From Synechococcus sp. UW179A (lineage in GTDB: Bacteria > Cyanobacteriota > Cyanobacteriia > PCC-6307 > Cyanobiaceae): a stretch of DNA of 64,000 nucleotides. The stretch lies in NCBI RefSeq assembly GCF_900473965.1, contig NZ_UCNJ01000025.1, forward strand, positions 1 to 64,000, in the 5' to 3' direction. Shown here in pieces: positions 51,293-60,272 of this stretch (its first letter is position 1; each line of letters starts with the position of its first letter). Both the position numbers and the translations under genes were made by a program. The notes below the pieces were generated by a model that searched no databases, was not told where the DNA came from, and saw nothing but the letters and a program-made list of their open reading frames with translations.

Positions 51293-51318
51293 AACGGCCT
51301 CAGCTTTAGGAGCCGGTG

Positions 51319-52824
51319 ATGACGCAGACGCTCCATTCGCTGCTACAGGCAGTGCTGCTTCCGCTGCCGGCGGGACTTCCCAATCCCGCGGTTACATCGA
51401 TCACCTGTGATTCCCGCAGTGTCGGTAAGGGCTGTCTTTTCATCGGCCTCCCCGGTGAACGCGTTGATGGCGGCCGTTTCTGGCCGGAGGCCCTGAAGGC
51501 TGGAGCCGTGGCCGCGCTGATCGGGTCTCAAGCAGCACAGTTGAATCCGCCCTCTGATCAGGATCCCGTGCTGGTGATTCCTGAGCCGGTGTCCCATTGG
51601 GCCGGAGAGCTGGCTGCCGCCTTCTGGCAGCAGCCCTCATTGCGCATGCATTTGATTGGTGTAACCGGCACCAATGGCAAGACCACCACAACCCACTTGA
51701 TTGAACATCTGAGCCTGGAGTGCGGTTGTCCTGCAGCACTGTTTGGAACACTGGTCAATCGCTGGCCCGGACATAGCGTGACGTCGACGCATACCACTGC
51801 GGTTGCGGATCGGTTGCAGGCTCAGCTGGCTGAAGCATTGAACCGGGGCACCGAGGTGGCGGCCATGGAGGTCAGTTCCCATGCTCTGGATCAGCAGCGC
51901 GTCGCGGGTTGTCGTTTTTCTTCCGCGGTGTTCACCAACCTCACGCAGGACCACCTCGACTACCACGCGACGATGGAGGCCTATTTCGAAGCTAAGGCGC
52001 GTCTGTTTGCCGATCCTTTCCTGATCGGGGAAGGCCCCAGGGCGGTGGTGAATGTCGACGACCCCTGGGGGCGTCGTCTGGCGGATCGCCTTGGCGATCG
52101 CTGTTGGCGCTGCAGCCTCGACGAGATGGCCGATCTCAGCATGCGTGATCTCGTAATGACGTCTAGCGGTGTGGAGGGAATGCTGCTCACACCTCGAGGG
52201 GAAGGTTGTTTTCATTCGCCTCTGGTGGGTCGCTTCAATTTGATGAATGTGATGCAGGCCATCGGCTCGCTGCTCCAGCAGGACCTGCCACTGCCCCTGT
52301 TGTTAAGGGCCCTTCCGCATTTCCGAGGTGTTCCTGGCCGAATGGAGCGGGTGCTGCCTTCCTCCCCTGCTGCAGACCAGCTGCCCGCCGTTGTTGTGGA
52401 TTACGCCCACACCCCGGACGGTCTACGCAGCGCTCTTCAGGCCAGTCGTCCCTTTGTGGATGGACAGCTGGTGTGTGTGTTTGGCTGCGGTGGAGACCGT
52501 GATCGGGGCAAGCGTCCTCAGATGGCCTCGATTGCTGCAGAGCTGGCTGATCGCGTTGTGGTTACATCCGACAATCCACGTACGGAAGATCCTCAGCGCA
52601 TTCTCGACGATGTGGTGGCGGGGCTTTCTTCAGGCATCGACTACCAGGTGGAAGCTGACCGAGCGATCGCGATCGCTCAGGCGATTGCTCAGGCAGGACC
52701 TGGCGATCTTGTCTTGATCGCCGGTAAAGGGCATGAGGATTACCAGATTGTGGGCACTGAAAAGCTGCATTTCGATGACCGAGAAGAAGCAGAGCGAGCG
52801 CTCAAGCAACGCTTCGATGCCTAA
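51319..52824 (+). CDS. murE: UDP-MurNAc-L-Ala-D-Glu:meso-DAP ligase (MurE)
   Basis: This 501-aa cytoplasmic ligase adds meso-diaminopimelate to the peptidoglycan precursor. ATP-binding [15 protein letters not shown] lies near residue 112, and DNPRTEDP near residue 416 is the DNPR signature of the diaminopimelate-adding type rather than the lysine type. The C-terminal domain ([11 protein letters not shown]) is complete. An AGGAG 6 bases before the ATG at 51319 favours it over the adjacent GTG at 51316. Confidence 0.96.
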
Positions 52825-52929
52825 AAATTTGGTCGTTAAGCTTCAGTTTTTGATTGAGCATCGGTTTAATGATTGCCACTCAAGAGGCGATTGTCTTGAG
52901 TGATTTTGATGCTAATAACTTCTTTGCTC

Positions 52930-53832
52930 CTATCGATTTGGCTTTGATTGCTGTGCTGCTATTTTCACGAGATGATTGAGTTGTTCGCAAACGAGCTTGG
53001 GATGCTCGATCTGTATGAAGTGGCCACCCTGAGCTTTGAGAGCCGTGCTGTTTGGATTCTGGTTTAACCATTGCTTTTGCAGGCTATGCCAATTTCCTTT
53101 GATTGGAGCACTGGAATTCATTTCAGTAGATGACATGATGATGATTGGAAATGTGCTGCTCATCAGTGGCAGTTCTGCCACTTGCCTTTTGCTTGTCTTA
53201 AATCCTTTCTGTTGATAAAACCCATCGGCTGTTATTCCATTGTTTTTGCTTTGTCTTGAAACACCGTATAGCTTGTAGGCTTCCCTGCTAGGGATTGTTC
53301 CAATTGTTGTGAGGGCGATGTCAAATTGATTTTGAATCCGGTCTGAATACAGGAAATTGCTCGGCACTGGATCAACCATCAGCATGCCGGCGACTGAGTT
53401 AGGATATTTGCGTGCAAAATATCCTGCATAAAGTCCACCGTATGAGTGTGAAACGAGAATATATGGTGATTTGATTCGATTCCTGTCTAGGAGTTGGACA
53501 AATTTGGAATTGACGTGTTGCGCTGTGATCGGATTCGCTGAAGAGACGCTGAAATCTGGTGAGCTTTTGCCTAGGCCGCTTCTGTCGTACATGAACAGAT
53601 TGCCGAGTTGTTTGATGCATTCAAAGAACGTTTTGTTTGTAGACCATGCTTCTAATGATGATCCCGTCCCATTTTGAAAGACAACGGTGCCTTTGAATTT
53701 TGAATGAGGATTTGGGTGGTATTGAGAATGCAAAAGACTGCCGTCAATTTCAGTGAAATTGACCTGAGCAGAAGCCTGAAAAGCCCAGAAAAAAGAAGAT
53801 AAAATTATTAGTTTTTGGAATGTATTTTTCAT
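52930..53832 (-). CDS. Exported alpha/beta hydrolase, AT-rich
   Basis: This 300-aa protein has a signal peptide (hydrophobic to residue 22, ending QASA/QVNF) and an alpha/beta hydrolase fold: oxyanion-hole GTGSSLEAW, nucleophile Ser in VSHSYGGLYAG, acid Asp in MLMVDPVPS and catalytic His in GGHFIQIEHP near the end. The substrate is unknown; esterase or lactonase activity outside the cytoplasm is likely. Its codons are distinctly AT-rich compared with neighbouring murE and the PLP gene, suggesting recent acquisition. The ATG at 53832 starts the signal peptide. Confidence 0.85.
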   Translation of the reverse strand: MKNTFQKLIILSSFFWAFQASAQVNFTEIDGSLLHSQYHPNPHSKFKGTVVFQNGTGSSLEAWSTNKTFFECIKQLGNLFMYDRSGLGKSSPDFSVSSANPITAQHVNSKFVQLLDRNRIKSPYILVSHSYGGLYAGYFARKYPNSVAGMLMVDPVPSNFLYSDRIQNQFDIALTTIGTIPSREAYKLYGVSRQSKNNGITADGFYQQKGFKTSKRQVAELPLMSSTFPIIIMSSTEMNSSAPIKGNWHSLQKQWLNQNPNSTALKAQGGHFIQIEHPKLVCEQLNHLVKIAAQQSKPNR

Positions 53833-53866
53833 GTCTTTTGAGGTTCGCCTCATGGCGTTCTTGGTG

Positions 53867-55069
53867 CTACCTGCCCTTTGCTGACAGCGTCCGAAGCTGA
53901 TCGATGAGTTGCACCATGTCGTTCTCGCTGGTGCAGATATGGGTGCAGGCTCGCAGGCAGATCGGATCTGCCAAATCACGGATCCAGATCTGATCTGCCC
54001 CCAGTGCTTTCACCACATCGGCTGGTGTTGCTGCCGTTGTTTCAGAGTGCATTTGGAAACTCACGAGACCAGCAGGGGGTGGCCCATCAAGTAGTGGTGA
54101 GACCCCGGGGATCGACTGCAGATCTCTCCACAGCTGTTCGCTCAGAGAGCGGATGCGCTCGAGTCGAGCACCATCCGAGCCTTCCTGATCTAACAGCTCA
54201 AGAGAGCAGCGCAGACCAGCCATCAATGGCACGCAGCTGGTGGCCACCTCAAAGCGACGGCTGTCGTGATGGAAGGGGTCTGGATCATCAGCTACAGCCC
54301 GCGTTTCATCCTGAAGGCTGCGCCAGCCGATCACGGTGGGATGGGCCTCCGTGAGCATGCGCTCTGAGAGCGCCACCCCACCCAGCCCTTCCGGACCACA
54401 GGTCCATTTGTGCCCGGTAAAGGCATAGATATCGGCCGCTTGTGCCGCCTCCCCAACGGGGATCTGGCCGACGCTCTGTGCAGCATCCACGAGTAAGTAG
54501 GGCTGTGCCGGGTGCTGTTGTAGCTCTGCGGCAACTGCTGCGATCGGCATCTGCTGACCGGTGTTCCAGAGCAGATGCGACAACACCACCAGCCGGGTTC
54601 GGCTGGTGAGCTGCTGTTCGAGGGCCGCCAGTACGTCGCGATTGGTGCGGGCCTGCTGATCGTGGCCGAGCCTGCACTGCTTCACCGGCAGCGTGTGAAC
54701 CTGCAGCTGGCGGCGCCGAGCCAGCTCATGGCAGGCCGCTACGACTCCGGGGTGCTCACAGTCGCTGATCAGAATGTGGTCGCCATCGTCCAGGGGGAGG
54801 CCCCAGAGCGGCAGCACACATCCTGTCGTCACGTTTTCGCTGAGGGCGAGCCGATGGGCTGGCACATTGCATAACCGCGCCAGACGACCGCGAGTTTTGT
54901 TCACTTCGGAGCTGATGTAGGGCCAGATGTCTGTGGTGAAGGGGCCGAGTTCCTGGATCCGTTTCCAGCTGGTGGTGATGGCCTCCAGAGAGGGCGTTGG
55001 CAGCGGCCCCTGCCCGCCGTAGTTGAAGTAGGTCTTGTTGGCCAGGGCGGGGCAGAGTTTTCTCAGCAT
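53867..55069 (-). CDS. Class V PLP enzyme, cyst(e)ine lyase / cysteine desulfurase-like
   Basis: This 400-aa fold-type I PLP protein belongs to the aminotransferase class V family. It has the cofactor motif SHLLWNTGQ, LLVDAAQSVGQIPV and the PLP lysine in AFTGHKWTCGPEGLGG. It lacks the mobile loop with the active-site Cys of IscS/SufS. It resembles the cyanobacterial L-cystine C-S lyase (C-DES), which releases persulfide for iron-sulfur clusters; that assignment is inferred. It is monocistronic. Confidence 0.85.
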   Translation of the reverse strand: MLRKLCPALANKTYFNYGGQGPLPTPSLEAITTSWKRIQELGPFTTDIWPYISSEVNKTRGRLARLCNVPAHRLALSENVTTGCVLPLWGLPLDDGDHILISDCEHPGVVAACHELARRRQLQVHTLPVKQCRLGHDQQARTNRDVLAALEQQLTSRTRLVVLSHLLWNTGQQMPIAAVAAELQQHPAQPYLLVDAAQSVGQIPVGEAAQAADIYAFTGHKWTCGPEGLGGVALSERMLTEAHPTVIGWRSLQDETRAVADDPDPFHHDSRRFEVATSCVPLMAGLRCSLELLDQEGSDGARLERIRSLSEQLWRDLQSIPGVSPLLDGPPPAGLVSFQMHSETTAATPADVVKALGADQIWIRDLADPICLRACTHICTSENDMVQLIDQLRTLSAKGR

Positions 55070-55271
55070 TAGGGATCTAGACCTGATCTCATGATCGCTC
55101 CTGAACTCATGCCTAGCTGCGTTCTCAGGCTGCTCTGCATGAGGTTGCGCTGAGCGCTGCAGTCGGCGCTCTCGAATGGTTCAGTTTTTGAATTTCAAGA
55201 CTTGGCTCTGCTGCGGAGTGTTCAGCCACGCCATGGCTACGTTGCGTTTGTTCGTTGGGTTGGTATCACCG

Positions 55272-55991
55272 ATGGCCCTGGTGGACTGGCTCTGGATCCT
55301 TCACCCTGCGTTGGCGGTGGTGTTGGTCTATCCCCTCATTGGGATCGTGATACGACTGGCGATGCAGACACGCTCCAGGCGACTCAAGACCTCAAAACCG
55401 CCTGCGACCGTGGGACGTGACCACAGTGATCTCGGCCGTTGGCTCGCGGCAGCTGTGGTTGGTCTGGTGATTGTTGCGCTCACCGTGGTCATCGCAACGT
55501 CTGGACCGCTCGATCAGTTTCAAGGCGGCTTCCGCCGGGCTGGCACGCTGCTGCTGGTATTGATCGGAACCCTGCTCAGTCTTGGCGCGCTCTGGATGGC
55601 GAAGGCACCTGGCCTGCGGCTGGCGTTTGCTCTGATCACCTGGGCTGGTGTTCTGGGTCTGGGAGCTCAGCCGGAGGTTTGGCGATTGTCTGATGACCCT
55701 TTCTCTCCCGCGTTCTGGCAATCCCATTACTGGTCGGGTGTCGCGGTGGTGGGCCTGATGTTGTTTTCTCTCGGTGCCCGGCCAGAGATTCTGCGCGACC
55801 TGCGTCTGCGCCGCCTGCATGTCACCGCCAATCTGCTTGCTGCGCTGCTGTTCGTGGCGCAGGGCATCACGGGCACCCGCGATCTGTTGGAGATTCCACT
55901 GAGCTGGCAGAAGCCGACGATCTATGCCTGCAATTTCGAGACCCGCAGCTGCCCGCCGTTGGCCCCGCCAGCTCAGGCTTCAACGCCTTAG
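55272..55991 (+). CDS. DUF4079-type integral membrane protein (copy 2)
   Basis: This 239-aa protein has about six membrane helices and the DUF4079 pattern: LHPALAVVLVYPLIG at the start, FWQSHYWSGVAVVG in the middle and RLHVTANLLAALLFVAQGITGTRDLL near the end. Conserved His residues could bind heme. The ATG at 55272 matches the family start; earlier in-frame ATGs (55233, 55176) are possible. The paralogue at 16089 is about 30 residues shorter. Its stop overlaps the convergent UrtA-like gene end by four bases. Confidence 0.78.
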   Translation: MALVDWLWILHPALAVVLVYPLIGIVIRLAMQTRSRRLKTSKPPATVGRDHSDLGRWLAAAVVGLVIVALTVVIATSGPLDQFQGGFRRAGTLLLVLIGTLLSLGALWMAKAPGLRLAFALITWAGVLGLGAQPEVWRLSDDPFSPAFWQSHYWSGVAVVGLMLFSLGARPEILRDLRLRRLHVTANLLAALLFVAQGITGTRDLLEIPLSWQKPTIYACNFETRSCPPLAPPAQASTP

Positions 55992-57238
55992 GGAGCGGTG
56001 CCGCTGCTGTGATTACAGTGCTGCCCTGCTGAGTCCGGATGATCAGGATTCCAGGGTTGGGGTTCAATCACGCCGAAATCTTTCACCACCTGGAAGTTTC
56101 CAGTGTCATCGGCCCTGCCAAGCAGGGAGCGCTTGTTGAGGTGCTGGCTGGGGGTGACGGTCAGCAAACCCTGCGGGGCTGCAAAGCTGGTTCCTATTAG
56201 ATGCTGACGGACGTCTTTGGGATTGGTGCTGCCTGCGCTTTCCGCCGCGCGGGCCCAGAGATTGACCAGGCTGTAGGCGGCTTCCGCGGGGTCGTTGATC
56301 ACGCGGTGATAGCCATAGCGACGACGAAAGCGCTGCGCGAATGTTTTGGAGGCGTCTCCAGCTAACGATTGGAAATAGCTCCAGCTGGCGTAAGTCCCGG
56401 AGATTTTGTTCGCACCGATCGCCAGGGCTTCTTCCTCCGAGACAGAAAGACTCAACACGGTCACTCCGCGATCCACGGCTTGTGAGCCAATAAGGCCCTC
56501 GCGGTAGAGCTGTTCAAAGAAGGCGAGGTTGCTATCGCCGTTCAGGGTGTTGATCACCACAACCGGTCCGCTTGTACTGGCTTGCCGAATGCTTTCAACC
56601 AGCGGGTGCACCTCTGCACTGCCGAGTGGGAGGTAGCGCTCAGCAAGCACTGTTCCTCCTTCCCGTTGCACCTGGGCACGCATGATGCGATTGGCGGTGC
56701 GCGGATAGATGTAGTCCGAGCCGATCAGCAGGATGCGTTTGCTGCGGTTAGCCAGCATCCAGTTCAAGGCGGGTTCTGACTGCTGATTGGGAACCGAACC
56801 GCCATACACCACATAAGGGGAGCACTCCTGGCCTTCGTATTGCACCGGATAAAACAGCAGTGCGTCCCGTGTTTCCAGGGCTGGCAGCATCGCTTTGCGA
56901 CTGGCCGAGGTCCAGCCTCCGAAGATGGCTACCACTTGCTCGTCACCCAGCAACTGTTCGGTCTGCCTCGCAAAGGTGACCGGATCGGACATGCCGTCTT
57001 CCTCGATGGGCTGAATCAAGACGCGCTTGCCTTTCAGCATCAGCCCGCCGCTCGCGTTGATTTCTTCGATCGCCAGTCGTTCGGCTTCGGCCACGGTGTT
57101 TTCAGACAACGCCATCGTCCCGCTGCGGGAATGGAGCAGACCCACGCGCACCACATTGACGTCGGTTGTGGAAGCGCCAGTACTGCAACTGCTCACCAGC
57201 AGGCTGGCCAGCAGGCTGAACAGCATCTTGTCTTTCAT
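55988..57238 (-). CDS. UrtA-like periplasmic binding lipoprotein, partner of an ion channel
   Basis: This 416-aa type I periplasmic binding protein resembles urea/short-chain amide receptors (UrtA, FmdD, AmiC). It has a lipoprotein signal ending LLVSSC, then VRVGLLHSRSGTMALSE, AIFGGWTSASRKAMLPALE, FYPVQYEGQECSP and SDYIYPRTANRI, all family blocks. No urtB-E permease or ATPase gene is near. Its ATG lies in an ATGA overlap with the stop of the ligand-gated channel gene, so the two proteins are made together. Ligand delivery to the channel, rather than transport, is the likely role (inference). Confidence 0.88.
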   Translation of the reverse strand: MKDKMLFSLLASLLVSSCSTGASTTDVNVVRVGLLHSRSGTMALSENTVAEAERLAIEEINASGGLMLKGKRVLIQPIEEDGMSDPVTFARQTEQLLGDEQVVAIFGGWTSASRKAMLPALETRDALLFYPVQYEGQECSPYVVYGGSVPNQQSEPALNWMLANRSKRILLIGSDYIYPRTANRIMRAQVQREGGTVLAERYLPLGSAEVHPLVESIRQASTSGPVVVINTLNGDSNLAFFEQLYREGLIGSQAVDRGVTVLSLSVSEEEALAIGANKISGTYASWSYFQSLAGDASKTFAQRFRRRYGYHRVINDPAEAAYSLVNLWARAAESAGSTNPKDVRQHLIGTSFAAPQGLLTVTPSQHLNKRSLLGRADDTGNFQVVKDFGVIEPQPWNPDHPDSAGQHCNHSSGTAP

Positions 57239-58380
57239 CGACTTCCCCAGCTGATCAACGCGGTCAGCACCAGGGCCAAGGCCGAGATGATCTGAAAGCG
57301 CTGGTCAGCTCGGTTGATCTGGCGCATGGTCTTCAGCTTCTGGTCGTCGGCAGCGCTGGTGTAGGCGTTGTAACCCCAGGTGAACAGACCGAAGAGGGCC
57401 ATGGCGATCAGGTAGCTGGCAGTGAACAGATCATCGAGAAAGGTGGTGTAGGGCAGTTTTGGCAGCGAGGAGTGATATGACTGCTGCAAAAAGATCAGTG
57501 TGAGCAGTGCCGTGGATGGGATGGCCAGTCGTACATCAGAGAGTGTTCCCTCAACGGAAGGAGCCATCAACACAATCGAGTTGATGATCATCAGCGGGAT
57601 GACCCAGTTGACGATTCCAGGCCAGAGATTCGACTGGTAGACCACTTCCAGACGAACTTGGCTCAGGTGCGGTCGATACCAGGTGCCTCGACGGTTGCTT
57701 GTGCGTCGGAGATAAGGCGTGAAGCTGGCACTCTCGAGCTGATAGCCGCTGAGGGTGCCCAGCTCACCCACCAGGTTGCCTTCATTCGGTTCGGGTAGCA
57801 ACCGCAGATCGGCGTATTTCTGCGACGTCCACAGTGGTTTGAGCTCCACGATCACCGGCAGCCGCAAAATATCGAACGGATCACGGCGGAAGTCGACTTC
57901 ATCGTCGTAAAAGCGGCTCGAGAAGTGAAAAAGCTGCTGGCGCCTTCCACCAGAAAGCTCCCGTGGTGCATCCGTGGAGGGTTCGAAGGTGGAGTCCCAC
58001 ATTTCGATGCGGTTGGCAAGTGCAATCAGGTCGGCAGGTTTGTGGCCATGTTTCTGCAGCAGTGCTTCCACTTCAGGCAGCCACTCCAGCCAGATCTCAC
58101 CATCAGCTGTGAATGTGCGTGAGTTCAGATTCAGCTCATAGATCTTGTCGAGATGGATTCCGGCGTAGATGAACGGATGCTTGCGCACCAGATCTTCCGA
58201 GAGCTGCACCTCTTCCAGGCCTGAGGGACCCTCCATCACCGCCGTAACAGCGTCGCGGTCGAGCACGTTGGGGGGGGCCTGGCCGATCAGCGCGCGTCCG
58301 CTCAGCATCAGAACGAAAACGATCGTGAGTGCCGCTGTTAGCACCAACACGATCAGGCGTGGACGTGGCATCCTCGGCAT
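57235..58380 (-). CDS. Prokaryotic pentameric ligand-gated ion channel (Cys-loop superfamily)
   Basis: This 381-aa protein has an N-terminal signal/anchor (residues 8-29), a beta-rich extracellular domain (about 60-250) with the YELNLNSRTFTADGEIWLEW strand pair (81-100) and the Cys-loop-equivalent DFRRDPFDILRLPV (163-176) without cysteines, then four membrane helices: TM1 252-274, TM2 280-300, TM3 about 313-336 and TM4 about 358-378. LPKLPYTTFLDD (307-318) is the conserved TM2-TM3 motif. It is first in a coupled pair with the UrtA-like lipoprotein. Ion selectivity and ligand cannot be read from sequence alone. Confidence 0.88.
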   Translation of the reverse strand: MPRMPRPRLIVLVLTAALTIVFVLMLSGRALIGQAPPNVLDRDAVTAVMEGPSGLEEVQLSEDLVRKHPFIYAGIHLDKIYELNLNSRTFTADGEIWLEWLPEVEALLQKHGHKPADLIALANRIEMWDSTFEPSTDAPRELSGGRRQQLFHFSSRFYDDEVDFRRDPFDILRLPVIVELKPLWTSQKYADLRLLPEPNEGNLVGELGTLSGYQLESASFTPYLRRTSNRRGTWYRPHLSQVRLEVVYQSNLWPGIVNWVIPLMIINSIVLMAPSVEGTLSDVRLAIPSTALLTLIFLQQSYHSSLPKLPYTTFLDDLFTASYLIAMALFGLFTWGYNAYTSAADDQKLKTMRQINRADQRFQIISALALVLTALISWGSR

Positions 58381-58454
58381 CGACAGCTGCTCGTGCCTGC
58401 ACTGATGTCTTCAGGATGGCTTTTCGCTCTGAGCCTGTCAGTGGCTGGACTGGA

Positions 58455-58700
58455 TCAGAGAACTTGAACCACTTCACTCACTTCAGGAATGGATTCGCGC
58501 ATTTTGCGCTCGATTCCCATTTTCAGGGTCATGGTGCTGCTGGGGCAGCTGCCGCAGGCGCCCTGCAAGCGCACTTTGACCACGGGTCCATCGATTTCCA
58601 CCACTTCCACGTTGCCACCATCGGCCATCAGGAACGGGCGCAGCTCATCGAGCACCTTTTCCACGTTTTCTTGGTTGAGCGGCAGCGTTTCGGTGCTCAT
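58455..58700 (-). CDS. nfu: NifU C-terminal-like iron-sulfur scaffold (Nfu)
   Basis: This 81-aa protein is a stand-alone Nfu domain with the cluster-binding CGSC motif in [20 protein letters not shown] near residue 50. In cyanobacteria such proteins pass 4Fe-4S clusters to photosystem I and other targets, fitting psaE elsewhere in this window. It lies 75 bases upstream of the channel gene on the same strand, and diverges from mqo. Confidence 0.94.
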
Positions 58701-58790
58701 GGCCGGATGGGGGTTAATGCTTTCACTCAGGGTAGGCAGGCACGTGTCCGGATGGATTCATACCCTTGAGAAGCAGGAACAGCTCACGCG

Positions 58791-60272
58791 ATGGATCGTT
58801 ACGACGCCGTGCTGGTGGGTGCGGGAATGATGAGTTCCACCCTGGCTTCGTTGCTGCATGCCCTCGACCCTGAGATGCGCCTTTTGCTGGTTGAGCGTCT
58901 CGAGGCGTCGGCTCTGGAGAGCAGTGCAGCGGTCAATAACGCCGGCACTGGTCATGCTGCCAACTGTGAGCTCAACTACACCCCCCAGCAGGCCGATGGG
59001 ACGGTGTCCACTGAGAAAGCCCTGGCGATCAATGCGGCCTTCGAGCGAAGCCTGGAGTTCTGGGCCTCTCTCACAGAACGGGGAGTTCTAGATCCAGGCA
59101 GCTTTCTTCATCAGGTGCCGCATCTCAGTTTTGTCTGGGGACAGGAGGATGTGGCGTTCCTGCAGCAGCGGCATCGTCAGTTGAGCGCCCTACCGGCCTT
59201 CGCAGCGATGCACTGGAGCACGGATGCCGAGCAGATCGGCGATTGGATGCCTTTGGTGATGCAAGGGCGTCGGCCTGGTCAACAGATTGCAGCCACCCGT
59301 ATCGAGCGTGGACTCGATCTCGACTTCGGGGCTCTGACCAGGGCACTGCTGCTGCCGCTGCAGACAGCGGGCGCTCTTCAGGTGGTATATGGCTCGTCAG
59401 TTCAGGGACTCAAGCGACCGCTGACGGAGTCGATGACCTGCTGTGACTGGCAGCTTGATTTGCGCGGTCCTTCGGGCCGTCGCAAGGTGCAGGCTCCGTT
59501 TGTGTTCCTTGGCGCTGGCGGTGGAGCTCTGCCACTGCTGCAGAGCAGTGGCATCCCGGAGGCAGCCGACTATGCCGGCTTTCCCGTGAGCGGCCAATGG
59601 CTAGTGTGCGGCGAGCCAGCTCTGGTGGGGCGTCACCACGCCAAGGTGTATGGCAAGGCGAAGGTGGGTGCGCCGCCGATGTCGGTGCCCCATCTCGATA
59701 CCCGCTGGATTGACGGCAAGCGATCCCTGCTGTTCGGTCCCTACGCCGGGTTTAGCAGCAAATTTCTCAAGACCGGTTCGCTGTTGGATCTGCCGCTGTC
59801 GGTGCGTCCCGCCAACCTGCTGCCGATGCTGCAGGTGGGAGTGAACAACCTGCCTCTGGTGAAGTATCTGATCAATCAGTTGCGCCAGAGCGAAGCTGAT
59901 CGGATGGAGGCATTGCATGCCTTCCTGCCTGAGGCCAATGCGGATGACTGGAGCCTTTCGGTGGCTGGTCAACGGGTGCAGATCATCAAACGCACGCCTG
60001 ATGGTGGTCGCCTGCAGATGGGCACGGAAGTGGTCAGTGCAGCAGATGGATCCCTGGCCGCTCTGCTTGGTGCATCTCCTGGGGCCAGCACCTCTGTGCA
60101 GATCATGGTGGAGGTGCTGGAGCGTTGCTTTGCTGCAAAGCTGGCCACGCAGGCCTGGCAAGAGCGCCTCAATCAGCTGATTCCCAGCTACGGCCAGGAT
60201 CTCAACAGCGATGCGGAGCTGTTGACTCGCACCCGAGAGCGTAGTGATGCGCTGCTGGGCCTACGTGTCTGA
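58791..60272 (+). CDS. mqo: Malate:quinone oxidoreductase (Mqo)
   Basis: This 493-aa FAD-dependent peripheral membrane enzyme oxidises malate to oxaloacetate with quinone as acceptor. The FAD-binding start [19 protein letters not shown], the [17 protein letters not shown] block near residue 48, and the C-terminal [19 protein letters not shown] are diagnostic. The length is typical. Its stop overlaps the convergent TVP38-type gene end by 12 bases. Confidence 0.95.

Follow-up and report, generated by a model that had tools for sequence, protein, structure and literature searches.

The channel and lipoprotein genes

In a 64,000-nucleotide stretch of the Synechococcus sp. UW179A genome (C25:1-64000, hereafter the window), a gene coding for a subunit of a pentameric ligand-gated ion channel (pLGIC) lies upstream of a gene coding for a UrtA-like, urea-type binding lipoprotein, both on the minus strand. 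An earlier note on this DNA, made from its letters alone, had described the two open reading frames (ORFs) as overlapping by ATGA and had proposed that they form a sensing or signalling unit; the coordinates confirm the overlap. The features of the pair are listed below (genome, contig and locus handles, G, C and L, are our own).

57235..58380 (-): pLGIC subunit gene (P0001), 381 residues; from the ORF, the ELIC match, the AlphaFold2 model, Foldseek and VIA-align
58285..58359 (-): N-terminal hydrophobic helix of the channel, residues 8-32 (signal or membrane anchor); from the secondary structure of the model
57631..58221 (-): periplasmic ligand-binding beta domain of the channel, its extracellular domain (ECD), about residues 54-250; from alignment and model
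57241..57627 (-): four-helix transmembrane domain (TMD) of the channel, residues 252-380; from the model
57469..57549 (-): pore helix M2, residues 278-304; from alignment and model
57235..57238 (-): ATGA stop/start overlap of the channel and lipoprotein genes; from ORF coordinates
55988..57238 (-): UrtA-like urea-type binding lipoprotein gene (P0002), 416 residues; from the ORF, Pfam/NCBIfam profiles and the PDB match
57185..57238 (-): signal peptide of the lipoprotein with lipobox VSSC, Cys18; from signal peptide and lipobox pattern

The channel ORF is a member of the pLGIC superfamily by its fold, an ECD beta-sandwich followed by four transmembrane helices, and by its homology over the ligand-binding domain (LBD) and TMD. 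Pfam and NCBIfam alone leave it unnamed, as no Pfam family scores above cut-off and LGIC_1 reaches only E 0.11. A phmmer search of PDB matches residues 73-348 (LBD and TMD) to ELIC (E 5.2e-8), and the AlphaFold2 model (mean predicted local distance difference test, pLDDT, 88.8; predicted TM-score, pTM, 0.83) has GLIC as its top Foldseek match (E 3.5e-19, TMt 0.79) and aligns with it in VIA-align over 284 residues at 3.0 Å (Z 22.7). Fold and domain plan are those of GLIC, ELIC, sTeLIC and DeCLIC, with an identity to GLIC of about 18-20%. None of these four channels is known to require a separate binding protein. Residues R284 and P288 of M2 are invariant across 66 aligned channels, as is P168, which we place in the beta6-beta7 loop via the ELIC alignment. 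A cation-selective pore is suggested by Asp282, which precedes Arg284 of M2 by two residues, in a register aligned by hand to GLIC.

The lipoprotein matches PF13433 (412 bits) and the UrtA family TIGR03407 (440.8 bits, under the cut-off of 492.75). Its closest solved relative is UrtA (8HIC; full length, E 6.6e-112), and it is 44.8% identical to the transporter UrtA of its own genome. In the window, as in the other pairs seen, the two proteins are encoded by ORFs of their own, with no N-terminal fusion of the binding protein to the channel. The absence of ATP-binding cassette (ABC) genes from the vicinity, reported in the earlier note, holds as far as was searched: none of the 50 PF00005 (ABC ATPase) matches of the genome falls in the window, urtBCDE is not beside the lipoprotein gene, and the flanking genes scanned are not ABC permeases, no family search for permeases having covered the whole window.

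Conservation of the pair

The channel is matched in 19 of the 31 genomes of the genus, and 10 of these have an orthologue (70-100% identity), the broken tandem channel copy of G021 being excluded from this count. All ten carry a UrtA-like gene immediately downstream and in the same orientation, and UrtA-like proteins at 67-100% identity are seen nowhere but beside the channel in the genomes of the genus. The 4-nucleotide overlap is possible in 10/10 of these pairs, all overlap counts assuming the start codon that lies closest to the stop. Adjacency in a single genome, the outcome that the earlier note had said would refute its proposal, is therefore not the case; Synechococcus WH7803 (G002) is among the holders. 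In two genomes, broken tandem channel copies adjoin the intact paired channel (G021, L071 7540-8720; G004, L068 6522-6778).

A wide scan of 84,980 species, with one genome per species, extended the pair to other phyla; the best 80 of 121 relatives (78 loci) were kept. Channels 49-59% identical to that of the window were found at 15 loci of 14 genomes (L226-L239 and L246) labelled Myxococcota, Deltaproteobacteria or Gammaproteobacteria (Halieaceae included). At each of these distant loci the UrtA-like gene is on the same strand directly upstream of the channel gene, which is the reverse of the Synechococcus order, and the 4-nucleotide overlap is possible in 6 of the 15. Occurring in every genus genome with an orthologue and at every distant locus, in two opposite gene orders, the pairing is more than chance, and over the whole clade 26 of 30 loci are paired. 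The unit is thus present in marine cyanobacteria, where the earlier note had placed it, but is not special to them, and a parallel second pair type occurs as well (see below). The channel is patchy in its distribution: of 117 relatives of one Halieaceae genome, 4 carry it. Synechococcus CS-1330 (L159 2654-5237, also L225) has a transporter-type UrtA facing a UrtA-clade channel, apparently a separate adjacency; UrtB is also present in that genome, beside another UrtA.

The channel tree (127 of 171 distinct channels, near-copies and nine loci being dropped and the CS-1330 channel absent) gathers the UrtA-paired channels in one 20-row clade (Shimodaira-Hasegawa approximate likelihood ratio test, SH-aLRT, 100), whose unpaired rows are two Cyanobium-type channels and a broken tandem copy. 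Pairing labels change 7 times on this tree, against a mean of 41.2 when shuffled. In the UrtA tree (54 rows, excluding the partial L062), all but one of the 26 paired proteins group in a single clade apart from transporter UrtA (SH-aLRT 100, with a moderate bootstrap of 86), and the paired UrtA of CS-1330 groups with transporter UrtA. The distances of channel and UrtA correlate closely over 25 pairs (Mantel r 0.956, the highest of 2000 permutations being 0.470), which indicates that the two genes are co-inherited. Eighteen channel positions are conserved only in the clade of the window channel and 16 of them lie in the ECD, a bias that would be expected of a ligand or partner surface.

The ligand site

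In all 26 paired UrtA-like proteins, a lipobox-like site lies ahead of the mature domain (25 by the strict pattern). The paper on the crystal structure of Prochlorococcus UrtA (PMC10392092) gives eight residues as strictly conserved: W120, S122, Y141, Q144, E146, Y190, N246 and S274. The first seven (8HIC numbering, checked) are kept in 26/26 paired proteins, and S274 in 25/25 checked, the CS-1330 protein being excluded; their equivalents in P0002 are W109, S111, Y130, Q133, E135, Y176, N233 and S265 (PDB alignment, letters checked). These residues bear out the description of the lipoprotein as UrtA-like, and our best guess from them is that its ligand would be urea or a near analogue.

Urea transport and urease genes

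The genome of the window has urtABCDE on contig C2, each gene above its NCBIfam cut-off, and this operon has its own UrtA (TIGR03407, 585.8 bits), which speaks against the lipoprotein being the receptor of a complete urt operon elsewhere, a case that the earlier note had raised against its own proposal. Like UrtA (8HIC, 7S6E, 7S6F) in its full-length match and key urea residues, the lipoprotein differs from it in forming a clade of its own, in scoring below the NCBIfam cut-off, in having no adjacent urtBCDE and in occurring where UrtB was not detected. Five paired genomes of the genus yielded no second UrtA, no UrtB and no urease alpha (urea carboxylase/allophanate hydrolase and passive entry being unexamined): G002, G011 and G026, which are single-contig and 99% complete, and G017 and G021, which are 73% and 85% complete, respectively. 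Among the 21 unpaired genomes of the genus, urease was found in 10 of 10 tested. No UrtB above cut-off was found in 10 of the 14 distant genomes. Urease alpha is present at full strength (189-191 bits) in three of these 14; the other 11 have no match or weak ones of 21-26 bits, some just above the 23-bit cut-off, which we read as probable related amidohydrolases. One genome of the genus, G005, carries two full UrtA genes separated by about 5 kb (G005:C1:1970298-1976973).

A proposed receptor made of two proteins

We consider it somewhat probable that the pair is a two-protein receptor, in which the urea-loaded lipoprotein would act on the periplasmic domain of the channel and change its gating. 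Anchored in the periplasm, the lipoprotein would close on urea, or on a very similar small amide, in its UrtA-like site. Since it would share the periplasm with the channel ECD, its closed, urea-loaded form could act on that domain. The partner would be a homopentameric, probably cation-selective pLGIC of the inner membrane, whose altered gating would convert periplasmic urea into ion flux or depolarisation, from which we infer some downstream response. Because UrtB, a second UrtA and urease alpha were not found in five paired genomes of the genus, the pair probably senses urea and signals via an ion channel; kept with the channel where importer and urease were not found, the lipoprotein would be part of a sensor rather than the feeder of a transporter. 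A broader claim, that a urea-gated channel with a separate binding protein serves purely to sense urea in bacteria without the usual genes for importing or hydrolysing it, and that binding-protein-gated pLGICs are a general bacterial receptor class with a second, Leu/Ile/Val-binding-like lineage, is tentative and falls a little short of probable.

Several observations weigh against the two-protein receptor. Within the clade, the Cyanobium-type channels L222-L224 have no adjacent UrtA, nor does a truncated HTCC2143 channel copy (L282, with 60% identity over 118 residues and too short to be placed in the tree), and lack of a binding-protein neighbour is common among channels at large (83 of 127 tree rows). 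The clade-only channel positions are also kept by two unpaired rows (L157, L222) and are thus not tied to pairing. At the thresholds applied, just two positions distinguish paired from transporter UrtA, so that no docking surface is evident and none is claimed. Co-inheritance of neighbouring genes would in itself be no proof of contact. The other five paired genomes of the genus have UrtB and urease, G009 and G027 are without UrtB yet also without the pair, and gaps in metagenome-assembled genomes weaken the absence counts outside the single-contig genomes.

Three other explanations were weighed. First, the lipoprotein may bind a small amide other than urea, such as a short aliphatic amide, and the pair would then sense that compound. 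AmiC, a type-I binding protein that serves a partner rather than an importer, as in LuxP/LuxQ-type receptors, is the next solved relative of the lipoprotein after UrtA (E 2.2e-50). All 26 paired proteins have Tyr at position 192, where 20 of the 21 transporter UrtA examined in the genus have Phe, and the five paired genomes in which urease alpha was not detected have no evident use for urea. However, the strictly conserved UrtA residues are retained, and the sole Tyr192 among these 21 belongs to the transporter UrtA of the window genome itself; we regard this alternative as rather unlikely. Second, the lipoprotein could concentrate urea near the membrane, urea then binding the orthosteric site of the channel with no contact between the proteins. 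Delivery of this kind is a published proposal for bacterial pLGICs with binding-protein partners, made by Tasneem et al. (PMC549065), and the channel clade conserves fourteen aromatic residues of the ECD; on general reasoning, though, a free binding protein would normally reduce the amount of free ligand, and such delivery is unlikely, slightly more so than another amide. Finally, it is most improbable that the lipoprotein is an orphan serving an importer of urea or another ABC importer encoded elsewhere, beside a channel of separate function: although the complete urtABCDE exists on C2 and a 2021 review reports orphan urtA genes in marine Synechococcus, for which alternative ABC machinery has been suggested (PMC8786288), the C2 operon comes with a UrtA of its own, the pairing persists in both gene orders and across three phyla, and the absence of UrtB above cut-off from the five paired genomes of the genus and from most of the distant ones refutes the idea there unless another importer uses the lipoprotein.

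Relation to known systems

The cooperation of binding proteins with bacterial pLGICs has already been proposed in general, whereas the UrtA-pLGIC pair appears to be new. The earlier note had called the pair undescribed; this stands for the pair, of which our literature search, with most subscription papers and preprints outside its reach, found no account, but not for the principle, which has been in print since 2004. Tasneem et al. 2004 (PMC549065) describe a type-I periplasmic binding protein (PBP-I) fused to a pLGIC in Magnetospirillum and Bradyrhizobium and operons of bacterial pLGICs with stand-alone PBP-II or Cache proteins, present cyanobacterial pLGICs as architecturally simple and propose that such partners cooperate in chemotaxis; the word urea is absent from their main text. 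The pair shares with those systems a pLGIC, a small-molecule binding protein and the proposed sensing, and differs from them in having a separate UrtA-type PBP-I lipoprotein whose urea site is conserved, in three phyla and in both gene orders. Whereas AmiC and LuxP/LuxQ-type systems have a regulator or a kinase as partner, the lipoprotein would be partnered by an ion channel. Swimming marine Synechococcus move toward nitrogen compounds, but since WH7803 is not known to swim, we claim no role in chemotaxis for the pair.

The roles of bacterial pLGICs in their own cells are largely unknown, even though GLIC and ELIC are standard models of neurotransmitter receptors. The pair comes with a cultured host (Synechococcus WH7803) and with predictions of both ligand and partner, which makes a native role of such a channel testable. 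If the broader claim above holds, bacterial pLGICs and orphan UrtA proteins alike would gain a function. A complex of the two proteins, should it form, would be a bacterial analogue of glutamate receptors, channels that bear binding-protein-like domains. The channel is also a candidate partner for the orphan urtA genes of the 2021 review, whose role and partners that review calls unresolved (PMC8786288).

A second type of channel/binding-protein pair

The genus holds 17 further channel loci, at 26-30% identity to P0001, and 13 of them adjoin a different type-I binding protein in divergent or convergent orientation. This protein matches PF13458 and has 3lop and 4kv7 as its nearest solved relatives, the latter bearing the name of a probable Leu/Ile/Val-binding protein. 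Of the 52 PF13458 matches above cut-off in the genus, 23 adjoin a pLGIC (10 UrtA-like, 13 of the second type). In the wider family, a pLGIC is found in 79 of 251 genomes; with the family regions (100 fetched, at least seven short fragments being left out), the second type amounts to 44 pairs (L073, L080, L126-L156 and others), with a distance correlation of 0.916. Its genes are mostly divergent; in six loci of the genus they are convergent, next to a PALP (trpB-like) gene. At six genus loci and one family locus, the second-type binding protein is followed by a Na/Ca exchanger gene (PF01699; e.g., L068 14288-15415 and L080 4660-5805); the exchanger could handle an ion admitted by the second-type channel. 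No such gene was found in the window.

By two home-made profiles, other channel clades have no such binding-protein neighbours. Beside unpaired channels (L240-L284), the commonest of 94 immediate neighbours (of 97 listed) are DnaJ (9) and ALAD/hemB (7), and none of the first 25 of the 81 families listed for them is a binding-protein family. Longer proteins with a C-terminal channel (L119-L125, 597-885 residues) were rejected as fusions: they have no Pfam match at E 0.01, their N-terminal parts are unmatched by two binding-protein profiles at E 10, and the extensions of L119-L123, which were aligned (L124 and L125 were not), are rich in Gln, His and Arg, are followed by a signal-peptide-like start and are read as out-of-frame.

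Genomic context

Relatives of P0001 number 0 in 50,697 phage and 72,556 plasmid records, and a search of viral contigs with the channel alignment gave none. No additional neighbour is common to the whole set of distant loci, where an RND (resistance-nodulation-division) gene recurs at three loci and an oxidoreductase gene at three, in small groups of close relatives; four of ten neighbours scanned belong to no family. One chromosomal site, marked by murE, class-V aminotransferase, DUF4079 and malate:quinone oxidoreductase genes, holds either pair type depending on the genome (L079-L083, L068); positions 51316-60272 of the window are the same site, and G004 and G021 have both pair types at it.

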